This document shows, piece after piece, positions 47,054-64,000 of a stretch of DNA of 64,000 nt. The notes beneath the pieces were generated by a model. It was not told the DNA's origin, ran no database searches, and saw only the letters and a list, made by a program, of their open reading frames with translations. This stretch comes from Burkholderia sp. NRF60-BP8. Its GTDB lineage: Bacteria > Pseudomonadota > Gammaproteobacteria > Burkholderiales > Burkholderiaceae. Made by a program: the position numbers and the translations under genes. The stretch's first letter is position 1. Each line of letters starts with the position of its first letter. Where the stretch lies: the NCBI RefSeq assembly GCF_001522585.2, contig NZ_CP013374.1, positions 248,001 to 312,000 of the forward strand, read 5' to 3'.

Positions 47054-48091
47054 ATGCCCAGTCCCACCGCCGTCCGGCCCGCCGGGCCGCCCCGCATGTC
47101 CGACGTAGCGCGCCTCGCCGGCGTATCGAAGATGACGGTGTCGCGCGTGCTCGCCGGTCACAGCGTGGCCGCCGAGACGCGTGCACGGGTCTGCGAGGCC
47201 ATCGAGCAGCTCGGCTACGTGGCGGATGCCGCCGCCGGTGCGCTGTCGTCGGGGCGATCGGAATTCGTCGCGGTGCTGGTGCCGTCGCTGTCGAGTTCCA
47301 ACTTCTCGGACACCGTGCGCGGCCTGACCGATGCGCTCGAACCGCATGGCCTCCAGTTGCTGCTCGGCGACACCGACTACGACCTGGAACGCGAAGAACG
47401 GCTCGTCCGGTCGATGCTGCGACACCAGCCGCGCTGCATCGCGCTGACGGGGTCGCAGCACACCGATGCGACACGCAAGGTATTGGAGCGCTCGGCGATT
47501 CCGGTGGTCGAGATGTGGGACCTGCCCACGCGCCCGATCGACACCGCCGTCGGCTTCTCGAACGTGCGCGCCGCCCGCGCGATGGTGCGCCACCTGGCCG
47601 AGCGCGGCTATCGACGCATCGGCTTTCTGGTCGGCGCGAGCGAACTGGATCGCCGCGGCCTCGACCGGCTCAAGGGCTACCAGGCGGAGATCAAGGCGCT
47701 GGGCTTGGGCGAACCGCGCGTCGTGCGGCTCGGCGAATCGCCGATCACGATGAGCCACGGCGGCCCCGCAATGGCAGCGCTGCTGGCGCAATGGCCGGAT
47801 ACCGACGCGGTGATGTGCGTGAGCGACATGTCGGCATTCGGCGCGATCATGGAGTGCCACCGGCGCGGGCTCGCCGTGCCGGCCGACATCGCCATCGCCG
47901 GCTTCGGAAACTTCGAAGTCTCGACATGCTGCCACCCGACGATCACGACCGTATCGGTCGATGCGTACGGCATCGGGCTGCGCACCGGCGAAGCGTTGCT
48001 GGCGGCGCTCCAGGCGCGTGACGGCGGCGAGCGGACCGACGCAAAAAGCATCCGTATCGACTACACGATCATCCCGCGGGAAAGCGCCTGA
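47054..48091 (+). CDS. LacI-family repressor of the sugar-acid locus
   Basis: 345-residue LacI/GalR regulator: HTH MSDVARLAGVSKMTVSRVLA starts near residue 15, followed by the hinge helix and a periplasmic-binding-like sensor (FVAVLVPSLSSSNFSDTVRG; LVGASELDRRGLDRLKGY). The start ATG at 47054 leaves a short proline-rich N-terminus. Its sites are GTTACCGGTAAC-like at 46815, 46877 and 48221, covering its own, the MFS and the dehydratase promoters. Confidence 0.94.
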   Translation: MPSPTAVRPAGPPRMSDVARLAGVSKMTVSRVLAGHSVAAETRARVCEAIEQLGYVADAAAGALSSGRSEFVAVLVPSLSSSNFSDTVRGLTDALEPHGLQLLLGDTDYDLEREERLVRSMLRHQPRCIALTGSQHTDATRKVLERSAIPVVEMWDLPTRPIDTAVGFSNVRAARAMVRHLAERGYRRIGFLVGASELDRRGLDRLKGYQAEIKALGLGEPRVVRLGESPITMSHGGPAMAALLAQWPDTDAVMCVSDMSAFGAIMECHRRGLAVPADIAIAGFGNFEVSTCCHPTITTVSVDAYGIGLRTGEALLAALQARDGGERTDAKSIRIDYTIIPRESA

Positions 48092-48220
48092 CGAGCCGAC
48101 GGCCGCGCGCATCCCGACACGCGACGCGCGCGGCTTCGTACCGGCCCCCTGCCCCACCCCATCGCCACGCGCGCACGAAATCCCTTCCGCTACGCAAAAA
48201 ACCCGTGCTAACATCCAGGC

Positions 48221-48238
48221 GATGTTACCGGTATCATT
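48221..48238 (+). promoter_or_regulatory. LacI-type operator 3 (dehydratase promoter)
   Basis: GATGTTACCGGTATCATT matches operators 1 and 2. An extra inverted half-site, TAACATC at 48209-48215, lies five bases upstream. It is 44-61 bases before the dehydratase start, so it would block its promoter. Confidence 0.78.
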
Positions 48239-48281
48239 CGGCACGCAAAATGAGAAAGGCCCCCTCAGGAGACAGCCTGCC

Positions 48282-50063
48282 ATGTCACACACCCCTCGCC
48301 GTCTGCGCAGCCAGGAATGGTTCGACGATCCCGCGCACGCCGACATGACCGCGCTCTATGTCGAGCGCTTCATGAACTACGGATTGACGCGCGAGGAGCT
48401 GCAGTCGGGCCGCCCTGTGATCGGCATCGCGCAGACGGGCAGCGATCTCGCGCCGTGCAACCGCCACCACATCGAGCTGGCCGAGCGCACCAAGGCCGGC
48501 ATTCGCGATGCGGGCGGCATTCCGATGGAGTTCCCCGTGCATCCGCTGGCCGAGCAGAGCCGCCGGCCCACGGCCGCGCTCGATCGCAATCTCGCCTACC
48601 TCGGGCTGGTGGAAGTGCTGCACGGTTTTCCGCTGGACGGCGTGGTGCTGACGACCGGCTGCGACAAGACCACGCCGGCCTGCCTGATGGCGGCCGCGAC
48701 CGTCGACATGCCCGCGATCGTGCTGTCGGGCGGCCCGATGCTCGACGGCTGGCACGAGGGCAAGCGGGTCGGCTCCGGCACGGTGATCTGGCATGCGCGC
48801 AACCTGCTCGCCGCGGGCGAGATCGACTACGAAGGCTTCATGCAGCTGACCACGGCTTCGTCGCCGTCGATCGGCCACTGCAATACCATGGGCACCGCGC
48901 TGTCGATGAACAGCCTGGCCGAGGCGCTGGGCATGTCGCTGCCCGGTTGCGCGAGCATTCCCGCCGCCTATCGCGAGCGCGGCCAGATGGCTTACGCCAC
49001 CGGCAAGCGCGCGGTCGAACTCGTTCGCGAAGACCTGCGCCCGTCGGCGATCATGACGCGCGCGGCGTTCGAGAATGCGATCGTCGTCGCGTCGGCGCTC
49101 GGCGCCTCGACCAACTGTCCGCCGCATCTGATCGCCATCGCACGCCACATGGGCGTCGAGCTGAGCCTGGACGACTGGCAGCGTTTCGGTGAAGCCGTGC
49201 CGCTGCTCGTGAACTGCATGCCGGCCGGCGAATACCTCGGGGAGAGCTTCCACCGCGCCGGCGGCGTGCCGGCCGTGCTGCGGCAGCTCGATGCGGCCGG
49301 CCTGCTGCGGCGCGACTGCCTGACCGTATCGGGCCGCGCGATCGGCGAGATCGCCGACGCCGCGCAGGATGCCGACCGCGACGTGATCCGTACGCCCGAC
49401 GCGCCGCTCAAGCATGGCGCCGGCTTCATGGTGCTGTCGGGCAACTTCTTCGACAGCGCGATCATGAAGATGTCGGTGGTGGGCGACGCGTTCCGCCGGA
49501 CCTACCTTGCCGAACCGGGCGCGGAGAATACGTTCGAGGCGCGCGCGATCGTGTTCGACGGCCCCGAGGACTACCACGCGCGCATCGACGATCCCGCGCT
49601 GAACATCGACGAGCGCTGCATCCTCGTGATCCGCGGCTGCGGCACGGTCGGCTACCCGGGCAGTTCGGAAGTCGTGAACATGGCGCCGCCCGCCGAGCTG
49701 GTGAAGCGCGGCGTCACGTCGTTGCCGTGCATGGGCGACGGACGCCAGAGCGGCACGTCGGCCAGCCCGTCGATCCTGAACATGTCGCCGGAAGCCGCGG
49801 TGGGCGGCGGCCTCGCGCTGCTGCGCACGAACGACCGCGTGCGCGTGGACCTGAATCGCCGCAGCGTCGACGTGCTCGTCGACGAGGACGAACTCGCGCG
49901 CCGTCGCGAGACCGCCAGCTTCACCGTGCCGCAGGCGCAAACGCCGTGGCAGGAACTCTATCGCCGGTTCGTCGGCCAGTTGTCCACCGGCGGCTGCCTC
50001 GAACCGGCCACGCTGTACCTGAAGGTCATCGAGCAGCGCGGCAACCCGCGCCATTCGCACTGA
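48282..50063 (+). CDS. xylD: Aldonic acid dehydratase, XylD-like (IlvD/Edd family)
   Basis: 593-residue Fe-S dehydratase that makes 2-keto-3-deoxy acids from aldonates. The start FRS-type block RRLRSQEWFDDPAHADMTAL, GIAQTGSDLAPCNRHHIELA and TTGCDKTTPACLMAAATVD (cluster cysteine) match D-xylonate dehydratase of the Weimberg pathway closely; IGHCNTMGTALSMNSLAEAL holds another cluster cysteine. L-arabonate dehydratases are related, so that substrate is possible. The ATG follows TCAGGAGACAGC. It is followed 32 bases later by the XylX-like gene and lies under LacI operator 3. Confidence 0.88.
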   Translation: MSHTPRRLRSQEWFDDPAHADMTALYVERFMNYGLTREELQSGRPVIGIAQTGSDLAPCNRHHIELAERTKAGIRDAGGIPMEFPVHPLAEQSRRPTAALDRNLAYLGLVEVLHGFPLDGVVLTTGCDKTTPACLMAAATVDMPAIVLSGGPMLDGWHEGKRVGSGTVIWHARNLLAAGEIDYEGFMQLTTASSPSIGHCNTMGTALSMNSLAEALGMSLPGCASIPAAYRERGQMAYATGKRAVELVREDLRPSAIMTRAAFENAIVVASALGASTNCPPHLIAIARHMGVELSLDDWQRFGEAVPLLVNCMPAGEYLGESFHRAGGVPAVLRQLDAAGLLRRDCLTVSGRAIGEIADAAQDADRDVIRTPDAPLKHGAGFMVLSGNFFDSAIMKMSVVGDAFRRTYLAEPGAENTFEARAIVFDGPEDYHARIDDPALNIDERCILVIRGCGTVGYPGSSEVVNMAPPAELVKRGVTSLPCMGDGRQSGTSASPSILNMSPEAAVGGGLALLRTNDRVRVDLNRRSVDVLVDEDELARRRETASFTVPQAQTPWQELYRRFVGQLSTGGCLEPATLYLKVIEQRGNPRHSH

Positions 50064-50095
50064 CTCCACCGCCCCCGACTCTTGCCGAGCTGACC

Positions 50096-51274
50096 ATGCG
50101 TACTCCTACCGTTTCCGACTGCCTGCCGCACGACCTCGCCCACGCGCTGCTGATCGGCCGCGTCTGGCGGCACGACACCGCCCACGCGGGCCCGAGCGTC
50201 GTCGCCGTGCGCGGCGGCGAAGTGTTCGACATCACGCGCACCGTGCCGACCACCGCGGACCTGTTCGACCGCCGCGATGCGCTCGCCATCGCACGCACCG
50301 CGTCCGGCGAATCGCTCGGCCGCGTCGAGCCGCTGTTGCAGGCGGCGCTGGACGGCACACCCGGCGCCACGCACCTGCTCGCGCCGTGCGACGTGCAGGC
50401 CATCAAGGCGTGCGGCGTCACCTTTGCGGTCAGCCTGATCGAGCGCGTGATCGAGGAACAGGCCGGCGGCGATCCGGCCAAAGCGGCCGAGGTACGCGAC
50501 ACCATCGCCTCGACCATCGGCACCGATCTGTCGAAGATCGTGCCGGGCTCGGAAGCCGCGCTGCGCCTGAAGGCGGAACTCGAGCGCCGCGGCGCGTGGT
50601 CGCAATACATGGAAGTGGGCATCGGCCCGGATGCCGAGGTGTTCTCCAAGTCGCAGCCGATGTCCGCGGTCGGCTTCGGCGCGGACGTGGGGCTGCTGCC
50701 CGTGTCGGTGTGGAACAACCCGGAGCCGGAAATCGTGCTGGCGGTCGCCAGCGACGGCCGGCCGGTGGGCGCGACGCTCGGCAACGACGTGAACCTGCGC
50801 GACGTCGAAGGCCGTTCGGCGCTGCTGCTCGGCAAATGCAAGGACAACAACGGCTCGTGCGCGATCGGCCCGTTCGTGCGGCTGTTCGACGACGGCTTCA
50901 CGCTGGACAGCGTGCGGGAATGCAGCGTGTCGCTGCGCGTCGAAGGCGCGGACGACGGCTTCGTCCTCGACGGCATCAGCCACATGCGCGAAATCAGCCG
51001 CGACCCGGCGGACCTCGTCGCGCAGACCTGCGGCGCGCATCACCAGTATCCGGACGGCTTCATGCTGTTCCTCGGCACGATGTTCTCGCCGATCCAGGAT
51101 CGCGACGCGCCGGGCGGCGGATTCACGCATCACCTCGGCGATCGCGTCACCATCTCCACGCCCGCGCTCGGCGCACTCGTCAACACCGTGCGGCTTTGCA
51201 CGGAGATCGCGCCGTGGACCTTCGGCGTGCGCGCGCTGTATGCGAATCTGGCCGCGCGCGGGCTGCTTGCCTGA
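50096..51274 (+). CDS. xylX: 2-keto-3-deoxy-aldonate dehydratase, XylX-like (FAH superfamily)
   Basis: 392 residues with a C-terminal fumarylacetoacetate-hydrolase fold; the Glu pair for divalent metal is seen in NNPEPEIVLAVASDGRPVG, then GNDVNLRDVEGRSALLLGKC. Length and position after xylD match XylX, which dehydrates 2-keto-3-deoxy-xylonate to 2-oxoglutarate semialdehyde. The final oxidation to 2-oxoglutarate needs a dehydrogenase not encoded next to it. Start ATG at 50096 follows GCCGAGCTGACC; no ideal ribosome site, so coupling to xylD is likely. Confidence 0.82.
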   Translation: MRTPTVSDCLPHDLAHALLIGRVWRHDTAHAGPSVVAVRGGEVFDITRTVPTTADLFDRRDALAIARTASGESLGRVEPLLQAALDGTPGATHLLAPCDVQAIKACGVTFAVSLIERVIEEQAGGDPAKAAEVRDTIASTIGTDLSKIVPGSEAALRLKAELERRGAWSQYMEVGIGPDAEVFSKSQPMSAVGFGADVGLLPVSVWNNPEPEIVLAVASDGRPVGATLGNDVNLRDVEGRSALLLGKCKDNNGSCAIGPFVRLFDDGFTLDSVRECSVSLRVEGADDGFVLDGISHMREISRDPADLVAQTCGAHHQYPDGFMLFLGTMFSPIQDRDAPGGGFTHHLGDRVTISTPALGALVNTVRLCTEIAPWTFGVRALYANLAARGLLA

Positions 51275-57622: not shown

Positions 57623-59146
57623 TCACATGACCGCGCCGCGCAGCCACGGCACGAACTCGCGTTCGCCGATGCCGTTGTCCTCGCTGCAAGAGCGTCGTCC
57701 GGACGCGACGTCGAGCATCAGCCGAAACAGCCGCGCGCCCGCTTCGTCGACCGTGAGCGAACCGGCGACGATCCCGCCGCTGTCGAAATCCATGTCCGAT
57801 CGCATCCGCTCGAACAGGCCGGTCGTCGTCGCGATCTTGATCGTCGGCACCGGCTTCGACCCGAACACCGAACCGCGGCCCGTCGTGAAGCACACGAGAT
57901 TCGCGCCGCCGGCGATCTGCCCGGTGGCCGACACCGGGTCGTAACCGGGCGTATCCATGAACACGAGCCCGGCTTGCCGCACCGGCTCCGCGTAATCGTA
58001 GACCGCGCGCAACGGCGAGCGCCCGCCCTTCGACACCGCGCCGAGCGACTTCTCGAGAATCGTCGTGATGCCGCCGGCGAGATTGCCGGGCGACGGGTTG
58101 TTGTTCATTTCGCCGCCGTGATCGGCGACGTAGCGCTCCCACCACTGCAACCTGCCGCGCAGACGCTCGGCTACGTCGCGCGAGGCCGCCCGCGCGATCA
58201 GCAGATGCTCGGCGCCGTAGATCTCGGGCGTCTCGGACAGAATCGCGGTGCCGCCGTTGCGGACCAGCAGATCGACTGCCGCGCCGAGCGCCGGGTTCGC
58301 CGTGATGCCCGAGTAGCCGTCGGACCCGCCGCATTGCAGGCCGACCGTCAGCCGCGCGGCCGGCACCGCGCTACGGCGCGCGCCGTCGGCCATCTCCAGC
58401 AATTCGCGCACGATCGACACGCCGCGGGCCACGGTATCGCGCACGCCGCCCTCGTCCTGAATGACCAGCGTGCGCACGGTGCCCGGCGCGGCCGCATCGA
58501 GCCGTTGCGCGAGCGCCCCAACCTGGTTGACCTCGCACCCGAGGCCGACGAGCAGCACGCCGGCGAAGTTCGGGTTCCGTGCATAGCCGACGAGCGTGCG
58601 TCGCAGCAGTTCGATGCCGTCCCCGGTTGCCGACATGCCGCAGCCGCTCTGATGGGTGATCGCGACGACGCCGTCGACGTGACCGAACGCATCGAGCGCG
58701 CCGTGCCGGTATGCATCGGCGATCGCATGACAGACGCTCGCCGAACAGTTGACGCTCGCGATCACGCCGACGTAGTTGCGGGTTCCGACGCTGCCGTCGG
58801 GCCGCACGAATCCGTCGAAGGTATCGGCGCGATCCGCCGGAACCTCGTGCACGTCGCCGGCACGTGCGTCGTCATGCGCATGCCGCTCGGGCATCCCGAC
58901 GTTGTGCACGTGCACGTGCTCGCCCACGGCGATGTCGCACAGCGCGATGCCGATCGGCTGGCCGCATTTGACGATCGCGTCGCCGCGCGCGATCGGCGTC
59001 GTGGCGACCTTGTGGCCGGCCGGCACCGCGGCCGCCGGCCGCAACGGCGCGCCGCGCACGTCGATCGGCACGTCCGGCGTCAGTGCGTCGAGTGCGACGG
59101 CGACGTTGTCGTCGCCGTGAAGGATCACGATTGCCGGTTGCTTCAC
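57623..59146 (-). CDS. uxaA: Altronate dehydratase UxaA
   Basis: Dehydrates D-altronate to 2-keto-3-deoxy-D-gluconate. The 507-residue chain has an N-terminal SAF domain (about residues 1-90) and the large galactarate/altronate dehydratase domain, with HQSGCGMSATGDGIELLRR, VLLVGLGCEVNQVGAL, CGGSDGYSGITANP and NPSPGNLAGGITTILEKSLG. The start is a GTG at 59146 that overlaps the preceding stop (GTGA) behind GGGAGACATGCATC. It is the terminal enzyme of the operon; KDG would then be handled by a kinase and aldolase encoded elsewhere. Confidence 0.93.
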   Translation of the reverse strand: MKQPAIVILHGDDNVAVALDALTPDVPIDVRGAPLRPAAAVPAGHKVATTPIARGDAIVKCGQPIGIALCDIAVGEHVHVHNVGMPERHAHDDARAGDVHEVPADRADTFDGFVRPDGSVGTRNYVGVIASVNCSASVCHAIADAYRHGALDAFGHVDGVVAITHQSGCGMSATGDGIELLRRTLVGYARNPNFAGVLLVGLGCEVNQVGALAQRLDAAAPGTVRTLVIQDEGGVRDTVARGVSIVRELLEMADGARRSAVPAARLTVGLQCGGSDGYSGITANPALGAAVDLLVRNGGTAILSETPEIYGAEHLLIARAASRDVAERLRGRLQWWERYVADHGGEMNNNPSPGNLAGGITTILEKSLGAVSKGGRSPLRAVYDYAEPVRQAGLVFMDTPGYDPVSATGQIAGGANLVCFTTGRGSVFGSKPVPTIKIATTTGLFERMRSDMDFDSGGIVAGSLTVDEAGARLFRLMLDVASGRRSCSEDNGIGEREFVPWLRGAVM

Positions 59147-60321
59147 GATGCATGTCTCCCTGTCGTTGCGCCGGCCGCCGGATCGCCGGCCGCCGGGTCA
59201 TGGCGGGCGACGAGTTGCCGCAACCGAGGTTGTTCGGCCGGCAGCGCCAGCGAATCCGCGAGCGCGAGCAACGGCTCGATCCGCCGCGCCACCTTCTCGC
59301 GATGGTTGACCGCGATATCGGCGATGCGATGCGCGAGAAACGGATTGAGAAAGCGCTCGCGCACGCTGTCGACGTACCGTTCCGCTGTATCGCGCAAGCC
59401 CAGCGCAACGAATACCGGCGCGACTTCATCGCGCCACACCGCCTCGAGGCCGTCGCGCAGCCGCGCATCGTTCATCGCGTCCAGTACCGTTTCCGATGCG
59501 TCGCGCCCCGCCGCGAGCCACTGCTCCGCGAGCCAGCTGTGCCCGAGATTGAGGAAGAACAGCTTCAGGCGCTCGTGGCTGCGCAAATCGTCGGTGACGA
59601 CGATCTGCGCGTGCCGGCACGGCAGCGCCATGCCGGCACGCCGTTCGATCGCCCACAGCGCATAGGGCTCCGCGATCGCGCCGACCGGATGCAGCGGCTC
59701 GGACACGATGCGGTCGACGAGCGAATTGACCCACACGCAGCGGTTGCACAGATAGTCGGCGAACGCGTCGGACAGCCGCCACCGGCGCGCGAGGTCCAGC
59801 ACGATGTCGCGCAGCGTGTCGCCGTTGTTCGTCACCAGTTCGCAAGGCAGGACGGAGATGCCGTCGTCGGGCCGCACCCGCCAGCGCGCATGCAGCAGCG
59901 CGAGCAGCTTCGCCGGAAAGCCGCTCGGGGTTTGCTCCGGCCGGTCGAGCAAGTCCGCGGCGTCGCGCGGATCGGCGCGATAGCCTGCATCGCCGGTGTT
60001 CGACACGATCGCGCGCACCGTCTCGATCGCGGCACGGCGGATCTCCGCCCAGTCGCGCTCGGCGTCCCACGCGCGCTGCACGGCGCGGCATTCGACGACT
60101 TCGTCGACGATGCCGCCGCGATCGCGCCCGCGAATCCGCACCGGATAACAACCGGTGGCGCGCAGCGCGTCGATGCGGGCGCGGCTCGCCGGATTGCCGG
60201 TCGTCTGCACGATGCCGATGCCGCCCATCGCGTTGCCGTCGTCCAGCGCCTGGGAGACGAACAGGTCGACGTGCGCCAGCAGGAAGCGGCTCGTGCCGAA
60301 CTGCAGGATCGGCGGCGTCAT
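59143..60321 (-). CDS. Mannitol dehydrogenase-family oxidoreductase, UxaB/UxuB-like
   Basis: 392-residue NAD-dependent enzyme of the polyol/fructuronate-tagaturonate reductase family. LQFGTSRFLLAHVDLFVSQA is the N-terminal cofactor segment and CNRCVWVNSLVDRIVSEPL is the conserved family block. UxaB is usually near 480 residues, so this is a short form. Because altronate dehydratase overlaps it, tagaturonate to altronate is the most likely reaction. It lies 31 bases after the zinc dehydrogenase. Confidence 0.88.
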   Translation of the reverse strand: MTPPILQFGTSRFLLAHVDLFVSQALDDGNAMGGIGIVQTTGNPASRARIDALRATGCYPVRIRGRDRGGIVDEVVECRAVQRAWDAERDWAEIRRAAIETVRAIVSNTGDAGYRADPRDAADLLDRPEQTPSGFPAKLLALLHARWRVRPDDGISVLPCELVTNNGDTLRDIVLDLARRWRLSDAFADYLCNRCVWVNSLVDRIVSEPLHPVGAIAEPYALWAIERRAGMALPCRHAQIVVTDDLRSHERLKLFFLNLGHSWLAEQWLAAGRDASETVLDAMNDARLRDGLEAVWRDEVAPVFVALGLRDTAERYVDSVRERFLNPFLAHRIADIAVNHREKVARRIEPLLALADSLALPAEQPRLRQLVARHDPAAGDPAAGATTGRHAS

Positions 60322-60352
60322 CGCGTGCGCTCCGCGTGCCGGATTCGGTCGC

Positions 60353-61363
60353 TCAGCATTCGACGAGCGCCTTCACGACGGTCTGCCCCGCTTCCAGCAG
60401 ACGCGGAAACGCGTCCGGCACCTCTTCGAGCCGCATTCGGTGCGTGTTCAGCGCGCGGTCCGGAATGCGTCCCGCGCGCATCGCGTCGAGCACCGTCGCG
60501 AAATCCTCGGCCGTCGCATTGCGGCTCGCGAGCAGCGTGGTTTCCCGCTTGTGGAATTCGGGATCCGAAAACGCGACGTGCCCGCGCACGATCGAGATCA
60601 ACGTGTATTTGCCGCCGTGCGCGACGAATTCGAAGCCGCGATTCATCGCATCGAGGTTGCCCGTCGCGTCGAACACCGCATCGAAATACTCGCCGTTCGT
60701 CAACGACGCGAGACGCGCCGCGTCGTCCGCCCCCACCTCCACCGCCGCATCGACCGCCAGGTGCTGGCGGCAAAACGCCAGCCGGTCGGCCCGCGTATCG
60801 AGACACGTGACGTCGGCGCCGCGCAGCTTCGCGAAAATCATCGCGGCCATGCCGATCGGCCCGGCGCCGACGACCAGCGCCCGCTGCCCGGCCCGGACGT
60901 CGGCCCGCCGCACCGCATGCGCGCCGATCGCGAGAAATTCCAGCATCGCTGCCTGGTCGAGCGAAATGCCGTCGGCCTTGTGGACGAACTGCGCGGGGAC
61001 GCTGAGGTATTCGGCGAGCGCGCCGTCGCGATGCACGCCGAGCACCTTGATGTTCACGCAGCAGTTCGTGTTGCCGTGACGGCATGCGACGCAGTGTCCG
61101 CACGACAGGTACGGCATCACGTACACCGCATCGCCGGCGCCGAGCCCCGACTCGGGTTCCGCCTCCACGACGACCGCGGAAAGCTCGTGCCCCATCACGC
61201 GCGGATAGTCGAGGTACGGCTGGTTGCCGGTGAAGATATGCAGATCGGTGCCGCAGATGCCGACGCGCTGCACGCGCAACAGCACTTCGCCGCTGCCGCG
61301 CACGGGCAGCTCGCGCTGCTGTACGCGCAGCACGCCGGGGGATTCGCAAATCACGCTGAGCAT
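60353..61363 (-). CDS. Zinc-dependent alcohol dehydrogenase, possible L-galactonate 5-dehydrogenase
   Basis: 336-residue MDR. Catalytic zinc ligands: C37 (GICGTD), H59E60 (GHE). The structural zinc cysteine cluster is CGHCVACRHGNTNC, and the cofactor motif is GAGPIGMAAMIFA. LgoD/RspB-type enzymes oxidise L-galactonate to D-tagaturonate. That assignment rests on context: downstream are the tagaturonate reductase-like and altronate dehydratase genes. Starts 22 bases after the lactonase gene. Confidence 0.87.
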   Translation of the reverse strand: MLSVICESPGVLRVQQRELPVRGSGEVLLRVQRVGICGTDLHIFTGNQPYLDYPRVMGHELSAVVVEAEPESGLGAGDAVYVMPYLSCGHCVACRHGNTNCCVNIKVLGVHRDGALAEYLSVPAQFVHKADGISLDQAAMLEFLAIGAHAVRRADVRAGQRALVVGAGPIGMAAMIFAKLRGADVTCLDTRADRLAFCRQHLAVDAAVEVGADDAARLASLTNGEYFDAVFDATGNLDAMNRGFEFVAHGGKYTLISIVRGHVAFSDPEFHKRETTLLASRNATAEDFATVLDAMRAGRIPDRALNTHRMRLEEVPDAFPRLLEAGQTVVKALVEC

Positions 61364-61385
61364 GTCGGGTTCCTTTCGTGATGGT

Positions 61386-62261
61386 TCATTCTTCGTGGCG
61401 TGCGGTGTCGATCCGGTAAAAGCGGCGTGCGTTGCCGCCGAAGAGGTCGGCCAGTGCGGCAGCGCCGAGCAACCGCGCGCAGTCGTCCTCGCACGCGGCC
61501 AGCCATTCGCCGTAGCCGCCGCACGCCGACGCCAGCCGCAACACCGGCCAGTCGCTGCCCCACATCAGGCGCGTCGGCCCGAACAGCTCGGCCAGCGCAT
61601 CGACGTACGGCCGCGTGCGCGCGCGCACGACATCCGGGCCGGCCGACGGCCCGGCCTCCGTCCACAGGCCGGACAGCTTGCAATGCAGGTTCGGCAGGCT
61701 CGCGAGCCTGCGCATCGCCGACAGCCACGGCTGCAGCACGCCGCGCTCGACGAACGGCTTCGCGCCGTGGTCGATCACGATCGGCAGATCCGGATGGCGC
61801 CGCGCGAATGCATGTAGCGCATCGAGATGGCGCGGCATCACCAGCGCATCGAAACCGAGCCGATGCTCGAGCATCGCGGCGACCGCGCGATCCAGTCGCG
61901 GATCGTCGATCCACGCGTCGTCGGGCAGATCCTGCAGCATCGGTCGCAAGCCGCGCGCCTTCGGCGCGGAGGCGAACGCCGCGATCCGCGCCGGCGCGTC
62001 GTCGGCCTTCATGTCGACCCAGCCGACCACGGCGCCGACGCTCGGCGTGGCGGCCGCCAGATCGAGCAGAAAGCGCGTGTCGGCTTCGCTCGGCAGCGAT
62101 TGCACGAGGACGGTGGTGTCGATGCGCGCGGCATCGAGCAGCGGCGCCAGATCGGCGGGATCGAAATCCCGGTGAATCGCGTCGAGTTCGGCCGGCGGCC
62201 AGCAGCCGGCCCGCGCGCCGATTCGCCAGTAGTGCTGATGAGCGTCGATGCGCGCGGTCAT
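61386..62261 (-). CDS. Amidohydrolase-superfamily sugar lactonase (cog3618 type)
   Basis: 291 residues. The N-terminal HxH metal motif is IDAHQHYW (H8, H10), followed by the VQSLPSEADTRFLLDLA region and, at the end, MWGSDWPVLRL with the catalytic Asp. This is the family of L-fucono-1,5-lactonase and L-rhamnono-lactonase, one of which was characterised in Burkholderia multivorans. Here the substrate is probably L-galactono-lactone. The ATG at 62261 overlaps the AKR stop (ATGA). Confidence 0.88.
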   Translation of the reverse strand: MTARIDAHQHYWRIGARAGCWPPAELDAIHRDFDPADLAPLLDAARIDTTVLVQSLPSEADTRFLLDLAAATPSVGAVVGWVDMKADDAPARIAAFASAPKARGLRPMLQDLPDDAWIDDPRLDRAVAAMLEHRLGFDALVMPRHLDALHAFARRHPDLPIVIDHGAKPFVERGVLQPWLSAMRRLASLPNLHCKLSGLWTEAGPSAGPDVVRARTRPYVDALAELFGPTRLMWGSDWPVLRLASACGGYGEWLAACEDDCARLLGAAALADLFGGNARRFYRIDTARHEE

Positions 62262-63274
62262 GCGCGTGCTCCCGGAACCGGCGCGTGCGCGTCGATCAGA
62301 CCTTCGTCGCGCAGTGCATCCCATAGTTCGGCCGGCGCAGGGCGCTCGAACCATTCGATGTTCTGCTTCAGCTGAGCGACGCTGCGCGCGCCGACCACGC
62401 ACGACACGACGGCCGGATGGCCGAACGGAAACTGCAGCGCAGCGGCGGGAAGCGGCACGTCGAAGCGGTTGCACAGCGCGCCGAGCCGCATGGCCTTGTC
62501 GATCACATCGGCGCTCGCGTCCGCATAGTTGAACTTGCCGTTGCCGGCGAGCAGGCCGGAGTTGAACACGCCGCCGATCACGATGCCCGTCCCTTCACGG
62601 GCGCACGCGTCGAGCAGCGGTTCGAGCGCCGTCTGTTCGAGCAGCGTGTAGCGGCCGGCCAGCAGCACGGCGTCGAGCGCCGCTTCGTTCAGCGCATCGG
62701 CCGCGACTTCCCATTCGTTCACGCCGAGACCGAACGCGCCGATCTCGCCGCCCGCGCGCAGCGCATCCAGCGCGCGAAACCCGCCGCCGCGAGTCAACTG
62801 CTCCCAATAGTGCGCGTGACGATCGCCGTGCGTCATCGCGCCGATGTCGTGCACGTACAGCATGTCGACGCGCGCGAGCCCGAGCCGTTGCCGGCTGTCG
62901 TCGTGCGAGCGCATGATCCCGTCGTAGCTGTAGTCGTAGACCGGCCGGAACGGCAAAGGCTCGGCCCAGCCGTCGTCGCCCGGCCGCACGCTCGCGTCGG
63001 CGCGCATCAGCCGCCCGACCTTCGTGCTGAGCGTGAAGGCGCCGCGCTCGCGCGAGGCGAGCGCCGCCCCCACGCGCCGCTCGGACAGCGTGTAGCCGTA
63101 ATACGGCGCGGTGTCGAAGTAGCGCAGGCCGGCCGCCCACGCGGCGTCGACGAGCGCGGCGGCATCGACGGCCGACATCGGACGATAAAGGCCGCCCAGT
63201 TGCGAGCAGCCGAGGCCGAGCGCCGACATCGTCATCCCGCTGCGCGGCAAGCTGCGCGTGTCGTTTGCGTTCAT
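62258..63274 (-). CDS. Aldo-keto reductase, D-threo-aldose/L-galactose 1-dehydrogenase type
   Basis: 338-residue AKR with the full tetrad D54, Y59, K85 and H142 (FDTAPYYG, LSTKVGR, YVHDIG). Close to D-threo-aldose 1-dehydrogenase and L-galactose/L-fucose dehydrogenases, which oxidise the sugar C1 to a lactone. The ATG at 63274 is used; a longer in-frame start adds ten residues. It overlaps the lactonase gene, supporting successive steps: aldose to lactone to aldonate. Confidence 0.89.
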   Translation of the reverse strand: MNANDTRSLPRSGMTMSALGLGCSQLGGLYRPMSAVDAAALVDAAWAAGLRYFDTAPYYGYTLSERRVGAALASRERGAFTLSTKVGRLMRADASVRPGDDGWAEPLPFRPVYDYSYDGIMRSHDDSRQRLGLARVDMLYVHDIGAMTHGDRHAHYWEQLTRGGGFRALDALRAGGEIGAFGLGVNEWEVAADALNEAALDAVLLAGRYTLLEQTALEPLLDACAREGTGIVIGGVFNSGLLAGNGKFNYADASADVIDKAMRLGALCNRFDVPLPAAALQFPFGHPAVVSCVVGARSVAQLKQNIEWFERPAPAELWDALRDEGLIDAHAPVPGARA

Positions 63275-63310
63275 GAGTCGTGACCCGATACGGGAAAGCG
63301 GCACGGCCGG

Positions 63311-64000
63311 TCAGTACAGGACATTCTTCGCCGCCTGCGAATCGAGGTTCTGCTTGTCGACCATCACGACGCCGGTATCGATCAGCTTCGGCGCGGGCTT
63401 GCGCGCGATGACGTCGAGCGCCGTGCGCACGCCCTGGTTCCCCATCTGCCACGAGCCCTGCACGGCGATCGCCTGCACGGTGCCGTCGCGCACGAAGCCC
63501 TGCAGGTCCTCGTTGCCGTCGAACCCGATCGCCACCACCTTGCCCGCCTTGCCCGACTGCTTCAGCGCGCGGCCCATCCCGACCGCGGTCGGCTCGTTCG
63601 CGCCGAAGATGCCCTTCAGGTCCGGATTCGCCGACAGCACGTCGGTCGTCTGGTTCAGCGCGGTCGCCATTTGCGATTGCGAGTAGTACGGACCGACGAT
63701 CTGCAGCTTCGAATGGCTCTCGATATATTTGCGGAACCCGCCGACGCGGCTGACCTCGGAGCCCGCACCCGGCACGTACGACATGATCGCGATCTTGCCG
63801 GATTGCCCGACGCGATCGATCAGCGCTTTCGCGCACAGCGCGCCCGCCTTCTCGTTGTCGGTCGACAGGAACGCCTGGTAATACGGCTTGCCGGCGTCCG
63901 CGATGGCCGAGTCGATCAGCACGACGGGAATGTGCGCTTCCCACGCCTTCTTGATCGCGGGGACGAGTGCATCGGGGTCGGACGGCGCGAGCACGATGCC
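63311..64000 (-). CDS. Sugar ABC transporter periplasmic binding protein (RbsB type), 5' end cut by the window
   Basis: 230 C-terminal residues of a ribose/xylose-type sugar binding protein. YYQAFLSTDNEKAGALCAKA, GIFGANEPTAVGMGRAL and VAIGFDGNEDLQGFVRDGTV are typical of the periplasmic-binding family 4. The gene continues past the window edge, so signal peptide and start are not seen. It lies 36 bases upstream of the AKR gene in the same direction; the importer likely supplies the sugar for the operon. Confidence 0.92.
   Translation of the reverse strand, partial: GIVLAPSDPDALVPAIKKAWEAHIPVVLIDSAIADAGKPYYQAFLSTDNEKAGALCAKALIDRVGQSGKIAIMSYVPGAGSEVSRVGGFRKYIESHSKLQIVGPYYSQSQMATALNQTTDVLSANPDLKGIFGANEPTAVGMGRALKQSGKAGKVVAIGFDGNEDLQGFVRDGTVQAIAVQGSWQMGNQGVRTALDVIARKPAPKLIDTGVVMVDKQNLDSQAAKNVLY

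Follow-up and report, generated by a model that had tools for sequence, protein, structure and literature searches.

Near the end of the 64,000-nucleotide stretch of Burkholderia sp. NRF60-BP8 DNA analysed here (the window), positions 57623-64000 carry part of an operon for sugar degradation, and the question it raises is which sugar it serves and how far the degradation goes. A sequence-only reading had placed there, in order of transcription, a sugar-binding protein, an aldo-keto reductase (AKR), a cog3618 lactonase, a zinc dehydrogenase (ZnDH), a UxaB-like reductase and UxaA, and had joined them into a chain from L-galactose to 2-keto-3-deoxygluconate (KDG). Indeed, each of the six genes has an uninterrupted reading frame on the minus strand, and hidden Markov models gave the same families in that order. 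It had also stated that neighbouring genes overlap or lie under 40 bases apart, and the five junctions measured span -4 to 36 bases: 36 nucleotides (nt) between the sugar-binding protein and AKR genes, 22 nt between lactonase and ZnDH, 31 nt between ZnDH and the UxaB-like gene, and two 4-base overlaps, one between AKR and lactonase (ATGA, given the lactonase start in Table 1) and one between the UxaB-like gene and UxaA. The window edge cuts the operon inside the sugar-binding protein gene. As a whole it has eight genes, three for the importer and one for each of the five enzymes, and lies on contig 3 (851,421 bases) of a 7.08-Mb genome (G000) in three contigs.

It is likely that these genes form an inducible L-galactose operon leading from importer to KDG. 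From gene order, homology, co-occurrence and an operator-like site, all of them observed, we infer every substrate and reaction given here, as well as the sense and the ligand of regulation. The CUT2 ABC importer would take up L-galactose, the AKR would oxidise it at C1 to L-galactono-1,5-lactone, and the lactonase would open this to L-galactonate. The LgoD-like ZnDH would then oxidise C5 of L-galactonate to give D-tagaturonate, the short UxaB-like enzyme would reduce this to D-altronate, a net C5 epimerisation, and the UxaA/GarD-family enzyme would dehydrate D-altronate to KDG. The operon stops there, with no gene for a KDG kinase or aldolase in it, and KDG would go onward through a kinase and an aldolase encoded elsewhere. 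A divergent GntR-family regulator would act at TTGGTCAAGCCAA, most likely as a repressor relieved by a pathway acid. The proposed chain stood in part: comparison supports its back half well and leaves L-galactose as the best single substrate, but importer, AKR and lactonase are not substrate-specific by sequence; the front half is less sure than the back half.

The search for close relatives yielded 42 loci, with gene presence judged by tblastn matches, as our own gene calls there were crude and some fell on the wrong strand. The nearest named relatives are members of the Burkholderia cepacia complex. Nine genes (those for the regulator, the three importer components, AKR, lactonase, ZnDH, UxaB-like protein and UxaA) occur in identical order in eight other Burkholderia loci (L007-L014), and therefore their assembly is not due to chance. 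At loci of Paraburkholderia, Trinickia and Caballeronia, the spot often lacks the lactonase or UxaA gene. In seven genomes that have an AKR operon without UxaB-like or UxaA gene (G005, G006, G009, G011, G351, G379 and G404), a copy of the absent gene was found elsewhere in the genome; this comparison covered those seven, and similar gaps occur at further loci such as L022, L023, L026 and L048. The UxaA copy of G005 is 58% identical and lies in another context. In an order-wide draw the UxaB-like gene was present in 3 of 150 genomes, our own included, and therefore the system is patchy outside the family.

Substrate of the ZnDH, UxaB-like and UxaA enzymes

L-galactonate, L-fuconate, D-arabinonate and D-altronate are the same from C2 to C4, and L-galactonate differs from D-altronate at C5 only. 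A C5 dehydrogenase plus a C5 reductase amounts to a C5 epimerisation ending in KDG, a compound open to phosphorylation at C6 by a kinase. L-fuconate is without the C6 hydroxyl, and D-arabinonate is without C6 altogether. Because the ZnDH-UxaB pair would have a use only if the acid carries a hydroxyl at C6, it points to L-galactonate, and the predicted sequence from L-galactonate through D-tagaturonate and D-altronate to KDG is well supported. The likeness of the three other acids to D-arabinonate is stated in part in PMC6336799.

Comparison with E. coli enzymes agrees with this assignment. The sequence-only reading had proposed a similarity check on the zinc enzyme, and ZnDH proved nearest to LgoD (43% identity, 268 bits), followed by RspB (152 bits), YdjJ (140), Tdh (119), GatD (95), IdnD (94) and Ahr (56); these pairwise scores are safer evidence than the ZnDH tree, in which the E. 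coli branches are very long. The UxaB-like protein scores higher with E. coli UxaB (131 bits) than with UxuB (65) and retains the K-x4-N-x2-H motif, which is catalytic in its family. It is about 90 residues shorter than UxaB, the C-terminal part being absent, and its relatives are likewise short (370-393 residues, estimated over 46 rows). UxaA shares 35% identity with E. coli UxaA, whose branch in the tree is very long, and 38% with GarD. In the UxaA tree, from which duplicates and rows below 250 bits or 85% coverage were left out, the partners of ZnDH and the UxaB-like protein are spread over separate groups of the family.

Among 398 genomes of the family, ZnDH and the UxaB-like gene were found together in 125, singly in one each, and neither was found in 271 (thresholds of E ≤1e-110 and E ≤1e-80, respectively, with 4 or 5 candidates per genome fully scored). 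The Fisher p of 1e-102 is overstated since the genomes are related; nine of 25 genera are involved. In 36 of the 125 genomes carrying both, the two genes are unlinked, lying more than 3 kb apart. Other sources of the intermediates were also considered. Uronate isomerase UxaC (PF02614) was detected in none of 18 genomes that have this operon or related ones, as against 7 of the 14 controls; therefore, D-tagaturonate must come from elsewhere than D-galacturonate by the E. coli route, and D-galacturonate via UxaC was rejected. A route from L-gulonate via fructuronate seems unlikely, as it would require a mannonate dehydratase and as UxaB is a better match for the reductase than UxuB.

L-fucose and the front half of the operon

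The five best matches of the AKR in the PDB are L-galactose dehydrogenases, the best at 98 bits, and its close homologues are also named in sources as D-threo-aldose 1-dehydrogenase, pyridoxal 4-dehydrogenase and L-fuco-beta-pyranose dehydrogenase. It falls within a Burkholderiaceae clade of 30 rows, 28 of which have ZnDH nearby, the other two being our own locus, cut short, and a short contig. The tree (duplicates and rows below 200 bits or 85% coverage left out) contains no characterised enzyme and separates contexts, not activities. The best solved relative of the lactonase is PDB 4dlf (150 bits), which we take to be L-fuconolactonase.

L-fucose had been argued against for want of a fuconate dehydratase. 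This argument is weak: the same genome has one on contig 1, and UxaA/GarD-family proteins have been assigned as L-fuconate dehydratases by gene context (PMC6336799). A better case can be made because there is a separate L-fucose operon with a dehydrogenase and a lactonase that closely match solved proteins and because ZnDH and the UxaB-like protein need a C6 hydroxyl. That operon (L065, contig 1) encodes a GntR regulator, a lactonase, an importer, a short-chain dehydrogenase/reductase (SDR), fuconate dehydratase, a fumarylacetoacetate hydrolase-family (FAH) hydrolase and a second SDR; against PDB 4gkb the first of the two SDRs reaches 488 bits, and against 4dlf the lactonase reaches 577 bits. 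Contig 1 is the only one of the genome with a fuconate dehydratase, there with FAH and SDR genes, and a second FAH relative lies on it as well. None of fuconate dehydratase, keto-deoxyfuconate dehydrogenase (SDR) and FAH hydrolase is encoded in the operon of the window. As L-fucose has its own operon on another chromosome of this genome, the likeliest substrate is L-galactose; L-fucose was rejected as main substrate for this genome and retained as a possible side activity. In six Paraburkholderia/Trinickia genomes (G005-G008, G010, G011), a second AKR (52-57% identity) is found no more than 4 kb from an FAH gene of the L-fucose type, and the window-type AKR lies with ZnDH.

Several findings nevertheless weigh against a dedicated L-galactose operon. 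Janthinobacterium, Azospirillum and Elstera have related genes for AKR (59-64% identity), lactonase (53-61%) and importer (65-81%) together with L-fucose genes, namely those for SDR, FAH hydrolase and rhaM mutarotase; an ENO-type fuconate dehydratase is added in L044, L046 and L047, and FucP in Massilia L043. The lactonase gene is absent near 12 of the 30 rows of the AKR clade (one being a short contig with a partial match). None of the five enzymes reaches the curated cut-off of its best NCBIfam model: YdjG methylglyoxal reductase for the AKR (56 bits, cut-off 550), L-fucono-1,5-lactonase NF052480 for the lactonase (217, cut-off 400), PRK10083 Zn oxidoreductase for ZnDH (187, cut-off 376), tagaturonate reductase NF002969 for the UxaB-like protein (204.5, cut-off 359) and galactarate dehydratase TIGR03248 for UxaA (380, cut-off 731). 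The candidates for a KDG kinase fall short as well: two PfkB kinases of the genome have the model for KDG and 2-keto-3-deoxygalactonate (KDGal) kinases as their best match, at 175 and 194 bits (cut-off 400); one of them sits amid genes that by eye resemble a 2-ketogluconate cluster. As regards the ligand of the importer, PDB 4wut (Agrobacterium vitis) presumably holds a bound fucose, perhaps the D-form; in that case strict selectivity of the importer for L-galacto sugars may not hold. UxaA relatives with 61-63% identity occur without ZnDH or UxaB-like gene in five Azospirillum clusters (L037, L039, L041, L042, L045). Finally, D-arabinose, L-fucose and L-galactose are all substrates of a Paraburkholderia AKR that belongs to the same broad family (PMC6336799).

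The sequence-only reading had named clustering of its enzymes with a different pathway as contrary evidence, and for the AKR this was found in part, in that relatives lie in L-fucose clusters; in its own clade the FAH+SDR pair of L-fucose genes is near none of the 30 rows. It is thus conceivable, although we hold it to be rather unlikely, that importer, AKR and lactonase are a shared front end that also serves L-fucose and D-arabinose, only ZnDH, UxaB-like protein and UxaA being L-galactonate-specific. The orthologous AKR-lactonase-importer sets beside L-fucose genes in the three genera above and the promiscuity of characterised relatives (PMC6336799; PMC6946681) speak for such sharing; the separate L-fucose importer, dehydrogenase and lactonase on contig 1 and the FAH+SDR-free clade speak against it, as does LguA, an L-galactose dehydrogenase inactive on L-fucose and D-arabinose (PMC12632266).

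An operon for D-arabinose, in which AKR, lactonase and UxaA would yield 2-keto-3-deoxy-D-pentonate, is very improbable. Its model is cluster 4 of Paraburkholderia mimosarum, induced by D-arabinose, which like our operon has a COG0667 AKR with a UxaA/GarD-family dehydratase, there acting on D-arabinonate; in that cluster a keto-deoxypentonate dehydratase follows, and ZnDH or a UxaB-like protein is not among the genes described in the available text (PMC6336799). On a pentonate these two enzymes would have no task, and a keto-deoxypentonate gene was not found in the operon or the eight orthologous Burkholderia loci, within reach of the queries used. Some support for D-arabinose comes from the window itself, which about 6 kb away (47961-51274, plus strand) holds an IlvD-family dehydratase gene (frame 47961-50063, 1093 bits to NF009560, above cut-off) and then a frame that reads like the FAH family; the pair fits a pentonate route.

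The five Azospirillum clusters mentioned above combine AKR, lactonase and importer with UxaA and an SDR, and in three of the five with FAH. Their genomes gave no ZnDH at E 1e-60, no UxaB-like protein above 38% identity and no ENO fuconate dehydratase at E 1e-30, and their UxaA group is sister (support 98/99) to UxaAs still paired with ZnDH and the UxaB-like protein. UxaA in these clusters probably dehydrates L-fuconate or a related acid directly; since the relatives occur without the epimerising pair, UxaA alone cannot fix the substrate. By the same token UxaA of our operon might dehydrate L-galactonate directly to 2-keto-3-deoxy-L-galactonate, with ZnDH and the UxaB-like protein on a side branch, an arrangement to which we give little credence. 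Besides the five clusters, it finds support in Acidovorax avenae, where the UxaA/GarD-family protein ACAV_RS08155 was named, from unpublished data, as L-galactonate dehydratase of an unidentified L-galactose route (PMC6336799). However, it gives no reason for keeping the pair together in 125 of the 127 genomes carrying either gene, and in E. coli and Luteolibacter the acid passes through D-tagaturonate and D-altronate.

A putative shared operator and sister operons

The sequence TTGGTCAAGCCAA lies in the intergenic region between the GntR and ATPase genes (L006:5949, outside the window). With up to 2 mismatches it is present in 43 of 43 GntR-divergent regions, ahead of importer operons and of ZnDH or UxaB-like operons, a count that is partly circular, as the motif was read from our own region and relatives and counted on the same regions. 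To be counted, a region, among 81 loci, needed a GntR match scoring more than 180 bits and, no more than 900 bases away, the start of a divergent ATPase, ZnDH or UxaB gene; several of the regions share a genome. In 200 single-base shuffles of the regions the mean was 0.19 and the highest value 2 of 43. Moreover, 56 of the 71 matches in those loci fall inside 10,925 intergenic bases, out of a total of 803,615 bases. Three loci that had no part in deriving the motif (L104, L116 and L120), being all the fetched loci where ZnDH lies apart from GntR relatives, carry it 65-75 nt ahead of ZnDH with 0, 2 and 1 mismatches, respectively. No copy was found in the 64-kb window or in the L-fucose locus L065.

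Sister operons in four loci (L073, L111, L114, L118) encode ZnDH, a UxaB-like protein, a major facilitator superfamily (MFS) protein and a UxaA-family protein, without AKR or lactonase, and three others (L074, L105, L121) are like them without ZnDH. The MFS protein is closest, within the query set, to E. coli LgoT (31-34% identity). As a common operator stands before AKR operons, AKR-free sister operons and lone ZnDH genes, AKR operons and ZnDH-UxaB-UxaA operons are tied into one regulon by this putative operator. We tentatively propose, short of an even chance, a modular L-galactose/L-galactonate regulon of plant- and soil-associated Burkholderiaceae, built of parts unlike known systems and with one GntR operator uniting even scattered genes: an ABC-AKR-lactonase module would handle the sugar, a C5-epimerising ZnDH-UxaB-UxaA module would also occur with an LgoT-like importer for the free acid, and some Azospirillum UxaA would have been rewired to direct L-fuconate dehydration after loss of the pair.

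The sister operons, with their LgoT-like importer, imply use of the acid by relatives, and it could be asked whether L-galactono-lactone or L-galactonate, for example from plant ascorbate metabolism, is the natural substrate in place of the free sugar. L-galactose, a rare sugar of plants, is a precursor in ascorbate synthesis, lying on the main plant route (PMC10069634), and it also occurs in the pectin domain rhamnogalacturonan II (RG-II; PMC6353982). We consider this improbable for the operon of the window, which encodes an aldose dehydrogenase and a CUT2 sugar importer; the rhaM-family mutarotase gene near the AKR in several relatives also fits a free aldose.

Some loci depart from both arrangements. 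In Burkholderia L106 and L109 (G379, G420), operons with several operator copies encode ZnDH, a UxaB-like protein, UxaA and an ENO-type dehydratase 58-59% identical to Azospirillum fuconate dehydratase, which makes two dehydratases per operon. In Azospirillum L046 (11190-14607) and L087, an importer with a family-3 solute-binding protein, which may carry a sugar acid, precedes the ZnDH-UxaB-UxaA genes; two exact operator copies stand before it in L046 and one further upstream in L087. In Massilia sp. Root418 (L043:15222-16950), an exact copy lies about 90 nt before the gene for a 545-residue protein that weakly resembles a pectinesterase (30 bits), among L-fucose genes and FucP, making this protein a possible cell-wall-degrading member of the regulon.

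Known pathways and locus layout

Enzymes for the first steps are known from another phylum. In Phocaeicola vulgatus, Bvu0219/0220/0222 are reportedly (Hobbs 2014) L-galactose dehydrogenase, cog3618 lactonase and L-galactonate dehydrogenase. Compared by description, this route has the same steps from L-galactose to D-tagaturonate as ours, and PMC12632266 credits it to Phocaeicola (Bacteroides) vulgatus. In Luteolibacter sp. LG18 a chain from L-galactose to KDG and beyond was shown with enzymes and knock-outs (PMC12632266). The novelty that the sequence-only reading saw in the assembled route was therefore too strong a claim. The Luteolibacter lgu cluster resembles our operon in that an AKR aldose dehydrogenase, L-galactonate dehydrogenase, D-tagaturonate reductase and D-altronate dehydratase are clustered and give KDG. 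By description, not sequence, they differ: lgu serves both L-glucose and L-galactose, contains an aldolase for 2-keto-3-deoxy-6-phosphogluconate (KDPG) and has a Btr-like regulator and, elsewhere, a C4 epimerase for L-glucose, with no lactonase or importer named in the available text, whereas the Burkholderia operon has a lactonase, a CUT2 importer and a GntR regulator (PMC12632266).

ZnDH, the UxaB-like protein and UxaA are homologous to members of the E. coli L-galactonate route (LgoT, LgoD, UxaB, UxaA). In E. coli K-12 lgoD-lgoT-lgoR lie apart from uxaB and uxaA, whereas in Burkholderia one operon starts from the sugar; the Burkholderiaceae sister operons unite the content of the E. coli set in one operon. 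The Burkholderia reductase is also shorter, and the Burkholderia UxaA resembles GarD no less than UxaA. Non-phosphorylative L-fucose clusters (our own L065, Azospirillum L046, Janthinobacterium L031) share with the operon a cog3618 lactonase, a CUT2 importer, a GntR regulator and, except for L065, a related AKR. The operon differs from them in lacking the SDR keto-deoxy-acid dehydrogenase, FAH hydrolase and ENO fuconate dehydratase, which in our genome are on contig 1.

All four enzyme families of the L-galactose-to-KDG route are thus in one operon whose order is kept in the eight Burkholderia loci, and no description of this Burkholderiaceae operon was found in open-licence literature. The chemistry has been described in other bacteria, and the gene set and its switch look like a betaproteobacterial variant with its own regulon, not a new pathway. 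Full lgu orthologue sets were reported in Luteolibacter only, and its authors found no organism with the set minus lguG for L-galactose only (PMC12632266); the regulon described here is a candidate for such a system. Such a regulon, spread over about a third of family genomes (ZnDH in 126 of 398), would give substrates to AKR, lactonase, short UxaB-like and UxaA/GarD proteins now named by family only. The operon also allows a direct test of which acid, D-altronate or L-galactonate, is the substrate of UxaA/GarD-family members in L-galactose operons.

Table 1. Genes of the operon and its divergent regulator (plain positions refer to the window; L006 is the own-genome locus that extends past its edge).
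Feature	Position	Strand	Remarks
CUT2 ABC importer, sugar-binding protein	63311..64000	-	last 229 of 315 residues in window; Peripla_BP_4; whole gene L006:2312-3259
AKR, probable L-galactose (L-galacto-aldose) 1-dehydrogenase	62258..63274	-	Aldo_ket_red PF00248
cog3618 amidohydrolase, probable L-galactono-1,5-lactonase	61386..62261	-	Amidohydro_2 PF04909; start ATG at 62261
ZnDH, probable LgoD-like L-galactonate 5-dehydrogenase	60353..61363	-	ADH_N + ADH_zinc_N
Short UxaB-like reductase, probable D-tagaturonate reductase	59143..60321	-	Mannitol_dh
UxaA/GarD-family dehydratase, probable D-altronate dehydratase	57623..59146	-	SAF PF08666 + both GD_AH domains (PF20629, PF04295)
Importer permease	L006:3302-4333		outside window; continues operon
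Importer ATPase	L006:4326-5870		outside window; continues operon
GntR-family regulator	L006:6047-6805		outside window; divergent from ATPase

Past the divergent regulator, with no operator copy nearby, L006:6873-15158 carries genes for a GH3 glycosidase, a second sugar ABC importer and a LacI-like protein; the best model for the glycosidase is beta-xylosidase/alpha-L-arabinosidase (776 bits, under cut-off).

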